NCBI RefSeq assembly: GCF_009649845.1 | Contig: NZ_WJIE01000004.1 | Span: 744,001-808,000, forward strand | Direction: 5' to 3' | DNA: 64,000 nt | DNA from: Polyangium spumosum | Lineage (GTDB): Bacteria > Myxococcota_A > Polyangia > Polyangiales > Polyangiaceae | Shown: positions 3,400 to 42,599 of the stretch, in pieces | How the letters are laid out: each line of letters opens with the position of its first letter | Numbering within the stretch: position 1 is the stretch's first letter | Translations under genes and position numbers: made by a program | Notes under the pieces: generated by a model | The model's input: the letters and a program-made list of their open reading frames with translations, nothing else | Database searches by the model: none | What the model was told of the DNA's origin: nothing

Positions 3400-4947
3400 T
3401 TAACCGAGGTCCTTGATCACGGCCTCGGCCGCGTTGTGGCCCGCGGCGCCGATCACCGCGCCGGCCGGGTGAGCGCCTGCGCTCGCGAGGTACAGGCCGG
3501 CGACGCCGAAGCGGTACGGCAAGCGTTCGGCGAAGCCGTAGCTGTTGTCCACGTGGTGGATGTGTCCGTACGTGATGCCGAAATGTCGCTCGATTCCCTG
3601 CGGCGAGAGCGCGAACGTGTCCTCGACGAGATCGGACGTGCCGGGCGCGAAGCGGTCGCAGAGCGAGAGCAGGTGCTTCACGTAGCCCGGGAGCACGTCG
3701 TCCCAGGAGCGGCCGTTCGCGAGCTCGTAGGGCACCCATTGCACGAAGAGCGCGGCGTTGTGGCGGCCCGCGTCGTCGCGCAGCGAGCCGTCGACGGCCG
3801 TGTGGATGTACATCTCGATCGTGGGGAACTCCGGGAGGCGGCCGGCCATCGCGTCGGCGTGGGCTTTTTGCAAGCACGCGAGCACCACGCTCTCCTCGGG
3901 CAAGAGGTGGATCGTCGCGCCGTACTGCCCGCGATCCTCGGGCAAACACATGAACGTCGGCAGCGCGCGGAGCGCCAGGTTCACCTTCATCGTCGTGCCC
4001 GGCCGCTGCACCTCGTCGAGGCGTCGCCAGAGCGCCGCGGGGAGGCGCTCCTTGCCGACGAGCCCGCGCGTCCGGTAGGGATCCGCGTTCGACACCACGA
4101 CCTTCGTGGCGATCCGCGATCCGTCCTCCAGCACGACCCCGCTCACCGCGCCGTCCGTCACCTCGATCGACGCGACCTTCGCGCCTTCGTGGATCGTCGC
4201 GCCCTCGGCGCGCGCCTTGTCCGCGAGCCTCTGCGACACCGTGCCCATGCCGCCTTCGACGACCATCCACGTGCCGTCGGCGCCGGGCAGGCGGCACATG
4301 TTGTGGACGAGGAAGTTCATGCCGGTGCCGGGCGAGTCGTAGCCGCCGGACACGCCCGAGAAGCCGTCGGTGACGGCGTACATCGCCTTGATGAGGTCAC
4401 TCCGGAACCCGAAGCGATCGAGGTAGTCGCCCACCGAGCCGCGGCACAGATCGACGAACGCCTTGCGCAGCGCGGGACGCACGTATTTCTCTGCCGTCTC
4501 CTCGATCGAGAGCGGCTCCTCGAGCCACGTGGGAGCGATGTCGTCGCGGAGCGCGGCGAGCTCCTGGTTCAGCGCGAAGTTCGCCTCCAGGTCCGCGTTG
4601 GAGAAGAACTCCAACATCTGCCGACGCATCGAGTCCGTGTCCGATCCGAAAAGCAGGTATTGACGGTCGGTCGTGGGAAGGAAGTAGTGCGGGTCACGCC
4701 GTTTCATCGGCAGATCCACGCCGAGCTTGGTGATGAGCTCCGGCGGGACGAGGCCGAGGAGGTACGCGCCCGTGGAAATGCCGAGCTTCGGGGCGCGGGC
4801 GAAAGGGAACTCCGTTTTCGTGGCGCCGCCGAGGGTGGGTTTTTCTTCCAGGACCAGAACCCGAAGCTTCCTGCGTGCGAGCAGGATGGCCGCCGTGAGG
4901 CCGTTGTGCCCCGCCCCCACGATCACGACGTCAGCGCGTTGTTCCAT
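3400..4947 (-). CDS. phytoene dehydrogenase-like FAD-dependent oxidoreductase
   Basis: The protein has 515 residues. The ATG at 4947 was chosen because it puts the dinucleotide-binding motif VVIVGAGHNGLTAA directly at the N-terminus; an upstream in-frame codon would add 15 unrelated residues. A second family segment, LEEKPTLGGATKTEFPF, follows at about 32-48. The C-terminal FAD segment LYLASAGAHPAGAVIGAAGHNAA fits the amine-oxidase/CrtI superfamily. These enzymes oxidise or desaturate carotenoids or related lipids using FAD. No carotenoid genes lie nearby, so the substrate is open. Confidence 0.9.
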   Translation of the reverse strand: MEQRADVVIVGAGHNGLTAAILLARRKLRVLVLEEKPTLGGATKTEFPFARAPKLGISTGAYLLGLVPPELITKLGVDLPMKRRDPHYFLPTTDRQYLLFGSDTDSMRRQMLEFFSNADLEANFALNQELAALRDDIAPTWLEEPLSIEETAEKYVRPALRKAFVDLCRGSVGDYLDRFGFRSDLIKAMYAVTDGFSGVSGGYDSPGTGMNFLVHNMCRLPGADGTWMVVEGGMGTVSQRLADKARAEGATIHEGAKVASIEVTDGAVSGVVLEDGSRIATKVVVSNADPYRTRGLVGKERLPAALWRRLDEVQRPGTTMKVNLALRALPTFMCLPEDRGQYGATIHLLPEESVVLACLQKAHADAMAGRLPEFPTIEMYIHTAVDGSLRDDAGRHNAALFVQWVPYELANGRSWDDVLPGYVKHLLSLCDRFAPGTSDLVEDTFALSPQGIERHFGITYGHIHHVDNSYGFAERLPYRFGVAGLYLASAGAHPAGAVIGAAGHNAAEAVIKDLG

Positions 4948-5096
4948 GGTTGGTCTCGTTAGCCCGCGTGCTCCCGTTTGTCCACGCGTCACGGCGCGGC
5001 AGAGCCCTGGATCGTCGGGGAAAAAGCACCTTACGCGACGCGTCGAAGCGTTCGCCGCCGTTTACCGGGCCTCCATGAAACCGTTAATGTCGCCGC

Positions 5097-6338
5097 ATGG
5101 CAGGCGAACGCGACGAAGAGAAGGACCCGGTCGAGGCCGAGGAGCCGAGCGAGGCCGAACCTTCGGCGAGCACGAAGGACGACGAACCGCAGGCCACGAC
5201 GTCGCGTGAAGAAGGAGCCAAGACGAGCGCCGAGCCGCCCCGCGCGGGCGCCGCGTGGGCGACGCCGTTCGTGCGGCTCGAGCGTGCGCTCACGTGGTTC
5301 GAATCGCGGCTTCTCTTCCTGGTCCTGCTCGCGCTCGTGTTCGCGCTCGTCGCGTGGATCTCGCTGCGTGGCCTCGCCTCGCCCGTGCAAGCGGACAACG
5401 CGGCGGGGACGGTCTTTCGGGCGCTGCTCGGCGCGGCGCTGCTCGGCGCGCTCGCGCGGTTCGGCACCAGCCGCGCCAGGATCGACGACGAGAAGAGGCG
5501 CGCGATCGTGACGGTCGTCGCGATGGCCATCGGCGTCGCGATCGCGCCGGCGTGGCGCGAGGTCGGCGTCGATCGCTTCGACGCGATCCTCAACTGGCTC
5601 CAGGAGGGCTCGTCGCTCACGCTCTTCGGCGGCCTGCGTGGCGTCGCCACGCGCCTCACCTTGCTCGTCGCGCTCATCGGCGCGTCGCTCGCCGCGGCGC
5701 GATCGAAGCACATCAACATCGACGTCGTGCTGCGCTTCATGCAGCCGAAGCTCCGCCCCTTCGTGCACGTCGCGGGCGCCCTCGCGACCGCCGCCGTCTG
5801 CTTCACCGCGGGCTTCGGGTTCTTCGATTACGTCTCGATCGAGGGCTTCGGCCAGCCCAAGGAGGCGCCGCTCGCCGAGAAGATCGCGGGCGTCCGGCGC
5901 GCCTCGTCGCTGCACTTCTTCGTCCTTCGCAAGCAGGTCGCGCTCGATCTGCGGGCCATGCCGGAGGTCGTCTTCAAAGGGGTCCGCTGGGACACTCCTT
6001 CACGGATGAACGGTCGCGCCTGGAACACGTGGCTCGACGAGGCAGGGTTTGGCGAGCGCTTCACCGCGGAGGAGCTCGTGATGATGAAGGCGCCGCCGGA
6101 GGCCGAGGAGCAGCCGCGCATCGCGGTCGTGAACCTGCCCGGGGAGAGCGCGCGTGGCTTGCTCATCCACGACATGAACCTCATGTGGCTCGTGGGCCTC
6201 TGGATGATCGGCCTGCGCGTGCTCCTGCGCGCGTTGCTCGTCGCGTCGGGCCACGCCTCGGTCGAGCCCGACGCCGAAGAGCCCGACGAGGACGACGAAC
6301 CCACCGCGCCTGCGGCGGCCGGGGAGGGAGCGCGATGA
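5097..6338 (+). CDS. TRAP transporter small permease (DctQ-like), enlarged
   Basis: This 413-residue membrane protein is encoded just before the TRAP large permease, with ATGA overlap (6335-6338). Residues 1-55 are acidic and hydrophilic. Hydrophobic segments follow near 73-92, 98-118, 137-155, 180-200, 217-240 and 355-380. A hydrophilic region of about 110 residues (about 245-355) separates the last two, making it about twice the length of ordinary DctQ (about 160-200 residues). By analogy with the family it forms the membrane complex of a secondary sodium-driven transporter together with DctM. The additional domain could contact the TatT lipoprotein; that is inference. Confidence 0.8.
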   Translation: MAGERDEEKDPVEAEEPSEAEPSASTKDDEPQATTSREEGAKTSAEPPRAGAAWATPFVRLERALTWFESRLLFLVLLALVFALVAWISLRGLASPVQADNAAGTVFRALLGAALLGALARFGTSRARIDDEKRRAIVTVVAMAIGVAIAPAWREVGVDRFDAILNWLQEGSSLTLFGGLRGVATRLTLLVALIGASLAAARSKHINIDVVLRFMQPKLRPFVHVAGALATAAVCFTAGFGFFDYVSIEGFGQPKEAPLAEKIAGVRRASSLHFFVLRKQVALDLRAMPEVVFKGVRWDTPSRMNGRAWNTWLDEAGFGERFTAEELVMMKAPPEAEEQPRIAVVNLPGESARGLLIHDMNLMWLVGLWMIGLRVLLRALLVASGHASVEPDAEEPDEDDEPTAPAAAGEGAR

Positions 6339-37609: not shown

Positions 37610-38407
37610 TCAGCCGGAGGCGGGCTTTTTTTGCTCGGCGGGGCCCGAGGAGGATCGGGCTTCCCCCGTCAGCGCGCGCTCCAGATCGGATACGTCCGAC
37701 ATGTCCTCGACGCGCGAGACGGAGACGTCGAGCCCGCGTGAGAGGATCTCGTGGCACCCGAGCGCGACGTCACGCACGGAGGGCGCGTTCCCCGTGAGCT
37801 CCTCGATCGACGTGACGCCGTGGTCGCGGATCCCGCAGGGCACGATGAGCTGAAAGGCGCGGAGATCCACGTTCAGGTTGAACGCGAAGCCGTGCATCGT
37901 GACCCATCGCGTGAGGCGCACGCCGATCGCGCCGAGCTTCGCGAGCTCGCTCGCCCAGGGCGCGCCGGCCCACTCGGTGGGTTTGTCGCGATCGGCCCAC
38001 ACGCCGATGAGCCCGTCGACGACGCCCGCCTCGACCCCGAGATCACGCGCGAGCAGGATCATCACCTCCGCGAGGGATCGGACGTAGCGGCGCACGTCGC
38101 ATCGATCGGGCCTGAGATCGAGGATCGGATAACACACGAGCTGACCGGGCCCGTGGTAGGTGACGTCGCCGCCGCGGCCCGTCTGCACGAGATCGACGCC
38201 GAGCTCGGCGAGCGCCTCCTTGCCACGAAGGACGTTGCCCTCGTCGGCGGCGCGGCCGAGCGTGACGACGGGCTCGTGCTCGACGAGCAGGATGATGTCC
38301 TCGATGTGCCCGTCCGCGCGGAGGGCGACGAGGTGCCGCTGGAGCTCGTGGATCGGCTCGTAGCGCCGTCGACCGAGGAAAACCGCCTTCGCGTGCCTTG
38401 CGCCCAC
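37610..38407 (-). CDS. lipB: octanoyl-ACP:protein octanoyltransferase
   Basis: This 265-residue enzyme transfers octanoate from acyl carrier protein to lipoyl domains, the first step of lipoic acid synthesis. The family motifs GRGGDVTYHGPGQLV (from about 77), LIGVWAD and VTMHGFAFNLNVDL are present. The catalytic pair is C191 (VPCGI) and K157. The GTG at 38407 overlaps the TAG of the HD-GYP gene (TAGTG), so translation is coupled. Beyond about residue 225 there is a short Ser/Glu-rich extension. lipA is not in the window. Confidence 0.95.
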   Translation of the reverse strand: MGARHAKAVFLGRRRYEPIHELQRHLVALRADGHIEDIILLVEHEPVVTLGRAADEGNVLRGKEALAELGVDLVQTGRGGDVTYHGPGQLVCYPILDLRPDRCDVRRYVRSLAEVMILLARDLGVEAGVVDGLIGVWADRDKPTEWAGAPWASELAKLGAIGVRLTRWVTMHGFAFNLNVDLRAFQLIVPCGIRDHGVTSIEELTGNAPSVRDVALGCHEILSRGLDVSVSRVEDMSDVSDLERALTGEARSSSGPAEQKKPASG

Positions 38408-39897
38408 TACTCCGGCACCTTGTCTCCGGCGCTGCGCCGCTCGTCGCGGTAGCCCTCGATCTTGTCGGTGAAGTTCGCAGCGACCTCGGGATCGAACTGC
38501 GATCCGGAGCATCGCTCGATCTCGGCGACGGCGACCTCGTGCGGCAGCGCGCGGCGATAGGATCGGTCGCTCGTCATGGCGTCGTAGGTGTCGGCCACGG
38601 CGATGATGCGCGCGATGATGGGGATCTCGTTGCCCTTCATCTTGAGCGGATACCCGCGCCCGTCCCAGCGCTCGTGGTGCAGGTGCACGCCCGGGATGAG
38701 CGGGTGCAGGAACTTGATGGGATCGAGGATGTCGCGGCCGTAGACGGGGTGCTTCTTGAAGACCTCGTACTCGTCCTGCGTGAGCTTGCCGGGCTTGTTG
38801 AGGTTGAGCACGCAGCCGATCTTGCCGATGTCGTGCATCAGCGCGCTCTGCCGGACGATCTCGATCTCGAACGCGGAGAGGCCGAGCTGCCTGGCGAGGA
38901 AGACCGCGTAGAGCGCCACGCGATCCGAGTGGCCCGACGTGTAACGGTCCATCTTGTCGATGGCCTTCGCGAGGCCCTGGATCGTCTGCTGGAACGTGGC
39001 CTGCAGGTCCTGGTAGAGCCGCGCGTTCTCGATCGCGGCGGCGGCGCGCGAGGCGATGATACTGAGCAGCTTGCGTTGCCCCTCCTCGAAGCGCCGCCCC
39101 TTGGAGAACGACGCGAGCGCGATGAAGCCCATGAAGCGCTGGCCGATGCGCAGCGGCACCGCGACGAGCGAGTAGAGCGGCACCTCCGGCGGGGCCGAGA
39201 AGAACTTCAGCCCGCGCGGGCCCTGCTCGAGCAGCGTCGCCTCGGCGCGCAGGTGCACGGCGATCTTGTCGTGATCGAGCGCGCCGATCGCCGCGTCCTC
39301 GGGGAGCTGCGGGCCGCGGATGTGTTGCCGCTCGAAGAGCCCGCCCTCGCCGTCGTCGAGCCACGTGGACACGAGATCGCTGCGCACCTCCGACAGGCAA
39401 CTCTCGGCCACGGTCTCGAGCACCTGATCGAGCGAGAGGCTCGCCTGGATGGCCTCGCTGACCTTGTACAGGCCGAGCGCCTCGCGCAGGCGCAGGTTCT
39501 CCGCGGCCATGCGTTGCTTCTCGAGCCCGCGCTGCACGACGTGGACCACCTCGTCGAGCTTGAAGGGCTTGAGCACGTAGTCGTACGCGCCGCGCTTCAT
39601 CGCGTCGATCGCCGTCTCGACCGTGCCGAACCCCGTCATGATCACGGTGAGCGCGTCGGGCGAGGTCTTGCCGATCTCGTCGAGGAGCTGGATGCCGCCC
39701 ATCTTCGGCATCTTGAGGTCGCTGATGATGAGGTCGTAGTGCGACTTCGTGAGCTCACCGAGCGCGGCGTTGCCGTCCTCGGCCGTGCGCACGATGTAGC
39801 CCTCCATGCCCAGGAAATCCGCCAGCATGTCGCGGATCACCTTCTCGTCGTCGACCACGAGGATACGCGGGCGCTCTTCCGTGAGTTGAGACGGCAC
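38407..39897 (-). CDS. response regulator with GAF and HD-GYP domains
   Basis: This 496-residue protein with a GTG start has three domains: receiver domain (about 10-125) with phosphorylatable D60 in ISDLKMP; GAF domain (about 145-295); HD-GYP domain (about 305-485) with HSDRV, HDIGK (355-359) and the complete HHERWDGRGYP (407-417). HD-GYP enzymes hydrolyse cyclic di-GMP to GMP, here probably controlled by phosphorylation and by the GAF ligand. No partner histidine kinase is adjacent. It shares one base with the lipB start. Confidence 0.95.
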   Translation of the reverse strand: MPSQLTEERPRILVVDDEKVIRDMLADFLGMEGYIVRTAEDGNAALGELTKSHYDLIISDLKMPKMGGIQLLDEIGKTSPDALTVIMTGFGTVETAIDAMKRGAYDYVLKPFKLDEVVHVVQRGLEKQRMAAENLRLREALGLYKVSEAIQASLSLDQVLETVAESCLSEVRSDLVSTWLDDGEGGLFERQHIRGPQLPEDAAIGALDHDKIAVHLRAEATLLEQGPRGLKFFSAPPEVPLYSLVAVPLRIGQRFMGFIALASFSKGRRFEEGQRKLLSIIASRAAAAIENARLYQDLQATFQQTIQGLAKAIDKMDRYTSGHSDRVALYAVFLARQLGLSAFEIEIVRQSALMHDIGKIGCVLNLNKPGKLTQDEYEVFKKHPVYGRDILDPIKFLHPLIPGVHLHHERWDGRGYPLKMKGNEIPIIARIIAVADTYDAMTSDRSYRRALPHEVAVAEIERCSGSQFDPEVAANFTDKIEGYRDERRSAGDKVPE

Positions 39898-39949: not shown

Positions 39950-42241
39950 TCAGTCGTCGTCCGAGACGATGGCGTGACGGATCGTGCGAGGAGACTCGTC
40001 GAGCTCGGGGACGGCCTCGGTCGGCGCCTCCGTGATCGTCGGTGATGGCAGGCCACCCGGCGGCGCGTACGAGGCCGGCTGCGGATGGGAGGGAGGCGAC
40101 GCGTACGACGGCGGCGACGCGAACGAGTCGGGCGACGCGTACGACATCGGCTCGGCGAGCGAGTCCGGCGGGTACGAGGGCGGCGGCGGCGCGAGCTCGT
40201 TCGGCGCCGGGGCGATCGCGGGCTGCGTGCCTCGATCGAGCGGCCGCGGCGGCGGGAGCGGCGCGGGCGAAGGCTCGCCCGGCAGCATCGAGGAGGCGCG
40301 GTTCTCGCCGAGCGCGTGCTTCTGCTCGAGGAACTTGATCACGGACGAGCCCGTCGCGCGCTCGAGCGACGCGCGCAGATCCCCTGGCAACGTCGACTCG
40401 ATGAGCAGCTTCGCGCCCGTGCGTGGGTGCACGATCTCGATGCGGATGAGGTGCACGAACGAGCGATCGAGGCCGTGCTTCTCCTCGAAGTAGCGGTTCG
40501 TGGGCACGTGGCCGTAGCGCTCGTCGCCGAGCACGGGGTGACCGATCGCCGCGAGGTGACGGCGGATCTGGTGCGGCCTGTGTCCGTCGGGGATCACGCG
40601 CAGGATCGAGTGACCCGAGGCCACGGCGAGCCTGCGGTAACGCGTCCTCGCCATGTAGCTGCGCCCGCCCTCGCGCAGGTCACGCGCGATGGCGCCCTTC
40701 GTCGGCGTGACGCCCTTCGCGGCGACGAGGTAGATCAGCCGCCCGCTCGTGGCGAGCGCCGTCGTCCAGAGCTGCCGCGCCACCTCGTTCCGCGCGAAGA
40801 TGCAGAGGCCGCTCGTCCCGGTGTCGAGCTTGTTCACCACCTTGAGGTTCGACACGCCCGGCAAGCGCAAGCAGCGCTGCATGAGCGAGCCGAGGTACTC
40901 CGGCTGGTTCTCCACCGGCTCGTGCGGGCCCTTCTCGACCACGATGACGTCGTCGTCCTCGTAGATCACCCGCGGCTGCGCCGGCGGCGCCCGCTTGAGC
41001 ACCGCCACCGTCTCGACCTCCTCCGTCAGCGGGATCATGTCGATCGGGATGAGCTCGCTCGACGTGTAGCCGAGGCGGCTGAAGTGATCGAGGTCCCGCG
41101 CGAGCGTGTCCGGATCACACGACACGTAGATGCAGAGCGGCGCGCCGAGCCGCGCGATCGCCTCGCGCGCCGCGGGCGAGACCCCGCGCCGCGGCGGGTT
41201 CATCACCACGGCGTCGAACTTCTCGTTGTTCGCGAGCAGCGAGTTGACCACGTCGGCCGCGTCGCCGACGCGCGCGTCGAGCTTGCCGAGCCCCTGCGCC
41301 TCCGCCGCCGCGCGCGCGTTGTTCACCGCCGGCGCGAACGACTCCACCATCGTCACGATGTTCTTCGCGTGCGAGAGCGCGATCGAGATCGCGCCCGATC
41401 CGCCGTACAGATCGAGCACGCGCGGCTGCCTGCGGTTCGTGCCCGTCTCGTCGATGAGGAGCTGCATGTCGAGCGAGGCGATCTCGCGCGTGATGAGCGC
41501 GTGCACGCGTGACGCCTGGCCCCGGTGCACCTGCACGAACGAGCCGAACGAGGCCACGTGGTACGTCGGCCCGATGCGGTCCTCCGCGTGTGGCACGCCG
41601 TCGAGCACCATCGTCTCCGGCCCGAGGATCTGCGGCGCGTCCGCCTCGTGCAGGTTCGCCGCGATGCCCACGACGCGCGGCAGGAGCGCCCGGATCGCGC
41701 GCCCCGCCTCCTTCAGCTCGTCCCGCGAGGGCACGCGATCTCGCTGCAGCACGAAGGTGAGGAGCACGCCGACGCGGTTGCCTTGCGCCGTCGTCGTCGT
41801 CTCGGGCAGCGCCGTCGTGCCGGGCATGTGCACCTCACGCAGATCGATCGCGCGCAGCACGCCTCCGCCGTGTGGCTCGTACGGCAAGAGCAGCCCGCGC
41901 GCCTCCGGCGGCGGCGACGCGATGAGCCCACGCAGCGCCGTCGTCACCTCGGCGAGCGCGGGCGCGAGCACGCGGCAGTTCGGGATGTCGATCACGTCGT
42001 GGTTGCCGGAGCGACCGTAGAGGCCGATCCCGCCCGCGTGCGACACGATGAGCTTCGCGCGCCCGCGGTAGCCGACGATCTGATCACCGGGCACGACCTG
42101 GCGCGTGTACAGAAGCTCGAGCGCCGGGTAGTGCACGATCGCGCTCACCACGCGCGCGCGCTTGGTCGTGAGCTGCTGGGCGTAGTCCATCCCGATGAGC
42201 GGGCAGCCGCCGCATTGCTCGGCGTGCACGCACTCGATCAT
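39950..42241 (-). CDS. fused RNA methyltransferase (RlmD/TrmA type) and RluA-type pseudouridine synthase
   Basis: The protein has 763 residues from the ATG at 42241; an ATG at 42370 would add a low-GC3 stretch. The N-part is a 4Fe-4S SAM methyltransferase of the RlmD/TrmA family with cluster cysteines C4, C10, C13 and C89, the SAM motif LDLYGGSGAISIAL, NPPR and catalytic C375 in SCDPDTLARD. From about 422 it continues as an RluA-like synthase with NKLDTGTSG (D473; the usual His-Arg of HRLD is Asn-Lys) and RPHQIRRHLAAIGHP. The last about 110 residues are Pro/Ser/Tyr repeats. It probably modifies rRNA or tRNA at two bases. Confidence 0.88.
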   Translation of the reverse strand: MIECVHAEQCGGCPLIGMDYAQQLTTKRARVVSAIVHYPALELLYTRQVVPGDQIVGYRGRAKLIVSHAGGIGLYGRSGNHDVIDIPNCRVLAPALAEVTTALRGLIASPPPEARGLLLPYEPHGGGVLRAIDLREVHMPGTTALPETTTTAQGNRVGVLLTFVLQRDRVPSRDELKEAGRAIRALLPRVVGIAANLHEADAPQILGPETMVLDGVPHAEDRIGPTYHVASFGSFVQVHRGQASRVHALITREIASLDMQLLIDETGTNRRQPRVLDLYGGSGAISIALSHAKNIVTMVESFAPAVNNARAAAEAQGLGKLDARVGDAADVVNSLLANNEKFDAVVMNPPRRGVSPAAREAIARLGAPLCIYVSCDPDTLARDLDHFSRLGYTSSELIPIDMIPLTEEVETVAVLKRAPPAQPRVIYEDDDVIVVEKGPHEPVENQPEYLGSLMQRCLRLPGVSNLKVVNKLDTGTSGLCIFARNEVARQLWTTALATSGRLIYLVAAKGVTPTKGAIARDLREGGRSYMARTRYRRLAVASGHSILRVIPDGHRPHQIRRHLAAIGHPVLGDERYGHVPTNRYFEEKHGLDRSFVHLIRIEIVHPRTGAKLLIESTLPGDLRASLERATGSSVIKFLEQKHALGENRASSMLPGEPSPAPLPPPRPLDRGTQPAIAPAPNELAPPPPSYPPDSLAEPMSYASPDSFASPPSYASPPSHPQPASYAPPGGLPSPTITEAPTEAVPELDESPRTIRHAIVSDDD

Positions 42242-42599
42242 CGTCGACGGGATCTCGCCGGCTCGGAGGGTCCGACGCGTGGGATTCGAAAGAATACCCC
42301 GCGCGGTCCCTCCGGCCCCGGGGGTTGCATCGGGCCCATTCGGCCCGTTTTTCCCTGCGCCTGGGTCCATCGGCGGTAGATTACAAGCGTCACTCGGGGA
42401 CGTCGAAGCAGGAAAACTCGCGGCCCATCGTTTTCTTCGTCGGGCGGGGAATCTCACCACCGGACGGTCGGGGCCGGGCCCTGGGTTGGCCTCGGCAGGG
42501 GCCGGACGAGGGCGGTGGTAACTTTGTCGTCACGCCCGCTCGGGCCCGCGTAGGATGCGGACCGCGAGGGCGATGGCAGCCCGCGTGATCGACCGAGCC
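42242..42599. other. intergenic region between divergent genes
   Basis: This 358-bp stretch lies between divergently transcribed genes. It may carry the 5' ends of both (alternative starts at 42370 leftward and 42555 or 42573 rightward). I see no clear promoter, hairpin or RNA gene. Confidence 0.35.

Follow-up and report, generated by a model that had tools for sequence, protein, structure and literature searches.

A Polyangium RNA methyltransferase fused to a pseudouridine synthase fold with an altered active site

Introduction

In Escherichia coli, U747 of 23S rRNA is methylated by RlmC, which is described as having no TRAM domain (PMC6235398), and the introduction of PMC7226160 places m5U747 chiefly in beta-, epsilon- and gammaproteobacteria. 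Among the pseudouridine synthases, the base-flipping arginine is needed in both RluA and RluB: as reported in the RluB paper (PMC3919597), RluA with lysine or methionine at this position was inactive, and RluB with alanine had 0.6% activity. Here, we describe a gene of Polyangium spumosum in which an m5U methyltransferase is joined to a synthase fold of this kind. The gene lies in a window of 64,000 nucleotides (contig NZ_WJIE01000004.1, positions 744,001 to 808,000), to which unprefixed coordinates below refer. The fusion is described nowhere in the literature searched, which took in few subscription journals.

Results

The fusion gene and its domains

The whole fusion gene occupies 39950..42370 on the minus strand. 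An earlier proposal had the gene start at ATG 42241 (ORF 42241->39950, stop-free, 763 aa), and the residue numbers used here count from that codon. The true start is probably ATG 42370, which would give a protein of 806 aa with an N-terminal extension of 43 residues (42242..42370, minus strand), because an upstream stretch RTL(R/K)AGE(I/V)P and a similarly placed ATG are common to 11 of the 12 named loci inspected from Polyangium, Sorangium, Byssovorax and Minicystis, with L063 as the exception. The minus strand then encodes an RlmC/RlmD-like m5U methyltransferase without a TRAM match (residues 1-417, 40991..42241), a fold of the RluA/TruC-type pseudouridine synthases (PUS; residues 420-628, 40358..40984) and a proline-rich tail that is predicted to be disordered (about residues 654-763, 39953..40282). 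A first-pass annotation had read the protein as an RlmD/TrmA-type methyltransferase joined to an RluA-like domain, and this is borne out by a single ORF in which both Pfam domains exceed their cut-offs (tRNA_U5-meth_tr, 34 bits against 23; PseudoU_synth_2, 46.9 bits against 26.8). The AlphaFold2 model, based on an alignment of 38 proteins, is a confident two-domain fold with a mean pLDDT of 85.5 and a pTM of 0.83. Disorder in the modelled tail begins at about residue 655, and pLDDT is below 50 for residues 661-763.

The next gene, a receiver-GAF-HD response regulator (38407..39897, minus strand), lies 52 bases downstream, and a relative of it starts within 300 bases downstream of the fusion in 19 of the 80 named loci (the best 80 of at least 487 relatives). 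A scan for regulatory sites returned no promoter-like sites and two terminator-like sites, against 1.2 expected.

The methyltransferase half

The Fe-S cysteines C4, C10, C13 and C89, the catalytic nucleophile C375 (codon 41117..41119, minus strand, YVSCDPDTLARDL) and the general base E410 are all present, which agrees with the annotation's claim of intact 4Fe-4S cysteines and a catalytic C375. C375, E410, R382, D383 and C89 are conserved in all 74 aligned fusions, C10 and C13 in 73 of 74 (one row is truncated) and C4 in 71 of 74. The fusions L027 and L098 have no first Fe-S cysteine, and Met or Asp is aligned there. Judged from its sequence, this half is very likely an active member of the RlmC/RlmD superfamily, an Fe-S enzyme that uses SAM to make m5U in RNA.

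Structure comparison matched residues 3-419 of the model to spRlmCD with U747 RNA (Z 44.2), and the scores of the methyltransferase against RumA (Z 39.8) and TrmA (Z 35.0) were close behind, so the best match does not name the target site. The protein fell under all RlmC/RlmD equivalog cut-offs. It is filed only as RlmC-like, and not as RlmC, because it scored 134.5 bits on the RlmC model NF002910, which has a cut-off of 558; on the RlmD model TIGR00479 it scored 152.4 bits, which exceeds its RlmC score and is below the cut-off of 183.55, and on the RlmD model NF009639 it scored 124.1 bits. The Pfam search of the 763-aa protein, without the 43-residue extension, gave no TRAM match at E 1. The first Fe-S cysteine is residue 4, or residue 47 counting from the longer start, and the model aligns to spRlmCD only from spRlmCD residue 68-71 onward. 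In the methyltransferase tree, the 21 fused rows fell on one side of a branch, but with a support of 76/37 and several long branches this placement is weak.

The synthase half

The annotation had also pointed out D473 in an NKLD motif instead of HRLD. We confirmed the motif (residues 470-473, 40823..40834, minus strand) and read NKLD in all six Polyangium genomes. The Polyangium synthase half keeps the catalytic Asp473, Tyr504 and the motif-III Arg560, and has Lys471 for the base-flipping Arg. Sorangium has Ala at this position, and the close relatives Byssovorax and Minicystis have fusions with the HRLD motif. Residues 421-631 of the model matched the RluC catalytic domain with Z 26.9. The half has the family fold, and its catalytic membership in the RluA family is doubtful, since the Arg that is needed in RluA and RluB (PMC3919597) is Lys471. 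The annotation's prediction of two modifications close together in one RNA is thus only partly borne out: the methyltransferase site is intact, but a second modification by the synthase half is doubtful.

Among the 74 aligned fusions, the synthase Asp is kept in 58 and missing in 16, Arg and Asp are kept together in 40, and the tetrad of Arg, Asp, Tyr/Phe and motif-III Arg is complete in 38, which suggests that the family probably includes working synthases. The alignment omits L119 (frame broken between the halves), L023 (a duplicate of L095), the short ORFs L096, L121 and L131, and further fusions from the 39-genome sample described below, and its columns are uncertain for the most degenerate synthase halves. 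As a control, we used 75 other RluA/RsuA-type domains of the relatives, made up of 68 places among the matches listed and seven from the Polyangium spumosum genome. Arg and Asp were present in 75/75 of these, Tyr in 75/75 and the motif-III Arg in 71/75, and none had Lys or Ala at the base-flipping position. The difference from the fusions in retention of Arg and Asp gave a Fisher p of 3e-13, which is nominal because the rows are related. The controls lean to stronger matches. Several are Polyangium orthologs, and a second fusion, described below, also matches the places of at least three (L207, L213 and L216).

The synthase halves of 18 fusions, picked for intact-looking sites, formed one group (100/97) beside TruC (86/83), and a single capture of the synthase by the methyltransferase is therefore likely. 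On a tree of the methyltransferase half, the state of the synthase Asp changed ten times, with at least seven of the changes forced by starred branches; this is a quick tree with SH-aLRT only, and the changes do not distinguish loss from gain. One relative, L114, has an altered synthase site and is not matched by the Pfam PUS domain; it was still modelled as a two-domain fold (pLDDT 90.8, pTM 0.89), though with intact relatives in its alignment. On contig G010:C22, two copies of the m5U fusion (L023 and L041) lie about 38 kb apart, and the PUS motifs are altered in both.

Distribution of the fusion

The annotation had suggested a survey of other genomes. The fusion is complete in all six Polyangium genomes searched, including that of Polyangium spumosum, with identities of 97-100%. 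Both halves were spanned in 22 of 39 genomes sampled around it (the six Polyangium and 16 others), and G013, with a degenerate synthase half, brought the number with the fusion to 23. Among the named loci, the best 80 of at least 487 confirmed relatives, 69 have both halves in one ORF. Most of these fusion loci carry myxobacterial or deltaproteobacterial labels; L102 and L115 are labelled only as a (proteo)bacterium, L120 as Planctomycetota and L124 as Thermodesulfobacteriota, and labels of metagenome-assembled genomes (MAGs) are possibly wrong. In a sample of 78 genomes of the class, 15 matched at E 1e-35 or better; the match reached into both halves in nine and covered the methyltransferase alone in six.

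Nine of the 80 named loci have the methyltransferase alone, and no PUS-like ORF was found in the flanks available; L122, the one of them that was read, has a TRAM-like N-terminus by eye. The stretches fetched around the six methyltransferase-only relatives from the class sample (L149-L154) likewise held no PUS-like ORF. The five whose ORF was read (those other than L153) are all TRAM-like by eye, and Pfam gave no TRAM hit in L149, the one of them that was scanned. In L129 a PUS ORF adjoins the methyltransferase, but it belongs to a different PUS-methyltransferase fusion: this deltaproteobacterial MAG has, at 4424-5986, an RlmD-like gene followed by a PUS-Methyltrans_SAM fusion with an SRLD motif.

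Selection on the two halves

Across the six Polyangium genomes, the 209 codons of the synthase half included 46 with synonymous changes only and none that varied in amino acid. The corresponding counts were 106 and 13 in the methyltransferase half (Fisher p 0.02, with related rows treated as independent) and 38 and 21 in the tail. The dN/dS ratios were 0.005 for the synthase half, 0.058 for the methyltransferase half and 0.175 for the tail (residues 640-763), and those of stand-alone Polyangium synthases were 0.171 (TruC-like, n=4) and 0.143 (RluD-like, n=6). In Sorangium, which has Ala, the synthase half had a ratio of 0.095 and the methyltransferase half 0.147. The two halves were equal (0.180 and 0.182) in the HRLD pair of Byssovorax and Minicystis, and such strong constraint is thus not general to the fusion. 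Given the very strong purifying selection on the Polyangium synthase half, NKLD may have changed specificity, as the annotation had supposed.

The same genome encodes a second fusion, in which an N-terminal PUS domain is joined to an RlmI/RlmK-like methyltransferase (Methyltrans_SAM; G000:C15:81820-83520, equivalent to L046 1421-3121). In all six Polyangium genomes, Glu takes the place of its catalytic Asp and motif III is not recognisable, whereas, of the 21 other relatives in which the PUS region is readable, 16 keep both, as judged by eye from the alignment. Within Polyangium the dN/dS was 0.225 for its synthase half and 0.093 for its methyltransferase. The weaker constraint on this synthase half within the genus sets the m5U fusion apart.

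The target RNA

The Polyangium spumosum genome encodes TrmFO (517.8 bits, cut-off 428.65) and TruB, the synthase of Psi55. Its second m5U methyltransferase, L009, is RlmD-like, fitting the RlmD model NF009639 (203.5 bits) better than the RlmC model NF002910 (71.9 bits); its TRAM match of 18.3 bits is below the cut-off of 21. With U54 covered by TrmFO and U1939 by the RlmD-like protein, elimination leaves U747 in helix 35 of 23S rRNA, and we put the chance that this is the methyltransferase target at about even. A TrmA role at T54 was dropped, as PF05958 had only two matches in the genome and TrmFO is present.

In the 23S rRNA of Polyangium spumosum, positions 746 and 747 are both U. The same holds for all seven fusion-bearing genomes with readable rRNA and for 10 of the 11 genomes with readable 23S rRNA overall. 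This is consistent with U747 as the target and is not proof, because three of the four fusion-free genomes with readable rRNA also have UU. In G012, which has no match to the m5U fusion, the helix 35 loop (L142) reads GCUGCAAAA, with C at 746.

Discussion

We propose that the protein is an active RlmC-like methyltransferase, with U747 as the inferred site, and that its PUS fold, no longer catalytic, has been retained as a module that holds the RNA, and consider this proposal as a whole to have an even chance of being correct. A methyltransferase without TRAM would carry a C-terminal, TruC-related PUS fold. This fold would be catalytically silent in Polyangium, where Lys471 replaces Arg even though Asp473, Tyr504 and Arg560 remain, and it would be retained to bind or position RNA for the methyltransferase, perhaps occupying the place of TRAM in RlmD and RlmCD. 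The sequences and the model display intact methyltransferase residues, a two-domain fold, loss of the Arg and very strong conservation, and across the fusions the methyltransferase sites are kept in 74/74 as against 40/74 for the synthase Arg and Asp. The lack of any amino-acid change in the Polyangium synthase half means that the domain matters, through catalysis with Lys or through RNA holding. Since relatives with broken sites still model as a two-domain fold (L114), RNA holding is favoured over Lys catalysis, and we regard this role for the Polyangium fold as somewhat likelier to be right than wrong; the conservation also fits an active enzyme that has adapted to Lys.

Such an enzyme would be bifunctional, making m5U and a nearby pseudouridine, for instance at U746 beside U747, with Lys471 in a retuned site. 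The retained D473, Y504 and R560, the dN/dS of 0.005 and the HRLD motif of the close relatives Byssovorax and Minicystis all fit this explanation, as do the adjacent uridines in helix 35 of the organism's own rRNA. None of the six stand-alone paralogs scored in the genome reached the cut-off for RluA, which makes Psi746, but this says little because the RluC, RluD and TruC cut-offs were missed too. However, Lys at the base-flipping position was reported to inactivate RluA (PMC3919597), and neither Lys nor Ala occurs there in the 75 other domains among the matches listed. The synthase half is also nearer to TruC (86/83) than to RluA, and U746 does not follow the state of the synthase site, because three fusion genomes with a broken site (G013, G017 and G019) keep it. 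The TruC grouping and the persistence of U746 lower the case for adjacent m5U747 and Psi746, and we consider a bifunctional enzyme unlikely.

The opposite view, that the synthase half is vestigial in Polyangium and heading for loss, could draw on the ten Asp changes across the quick family tree, at least seven of them forced. It is very improbable in our judgement, as no amino acid has changed in 209 synthase codons across six genomes and the half is more tightly constrained than the TruC-like and RluD-like synthases or the synthase half of the second fusion. On this dN/dS contrast, plain decay of the Polyangium half was rejected. Whichever account of the synthase half is right, the methyltransferase may act elsewhere, on U1939 of 23S rRNA, tRNA or tmRNA. 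The RlmC and RlmD family models overlap in their scores, dual-site RlmCD enzymes are described (PMC6235398), and the synthase half is TruC-like, the TruC models being named for a tRNA synthase; TrmFO and the RlmD-like protein already cover the two best-known other sites, and we hold such a target to be possible, with the balance tilted against it.

Extending our proposal of an RNA-holding module to the Polyangia, we suggest tentatively, with a confidence just short of even, that an m5U rRNA methyltransferase acquired an RluA/TruC-type synthase which, in several lineages independently, went from enzyme to a fixed, RNA-holding stand-in for TRAM; in Polyangium, silencing would have struck the synthase halves of both methyltransferase fusions, which are unrelated to each other. 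The fusions range from members whose synthase site looks intact to members in which it is fully broken, all on one methyltransferase scaffold, and this natural series lets one ask what the fold of a modification enzyme does beyond catalysis. The fusion also points to where m5U747 in myxobacteria might come from. To label such proteins bifunctional would mislead for many members of the family.

Compared with RlmC, RlmD and RlmCD (COG2265), the fusion has the same fold and catalytic residues and the four Fe-S cysteines, and adds the C-terminal PUS fold and the disordered tail while scoring below every equivalog cut-off. It resembles E. coli RlmC, as described in PMC6235398, in being without TRAM, and differs from RlmD and RlmCD, whose N-terminal TRAM has no match in its 763 aa. 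With TruC, RluC and RluA (PF00849) it shares the fold, the Asp, the Tyr and the motif-III Arg, and its synthase half lies beside the TruC group in the tree; it differs from them in Lys for Arg, in its methyltransferase partner and in the absence of the Asp from 16/74 fusions. The second Polyangium fusion also combines a PUS domain with an RNA methyltransferase and has had catalytic residues replaced in the genus, but its PUS domain is N-terminal and faster evolving (dN/dS 0.225), and its partner is Methyltrans_SAM. Vibrio cholerae TrcP, as described in PMC9553926, likewise carries a C-terminal RluA-family PUS domain on another enzyme that changes RNA bases; there the partner is a cytidine deaminase, both sites are active and the substrate is tRNA-Tyr.
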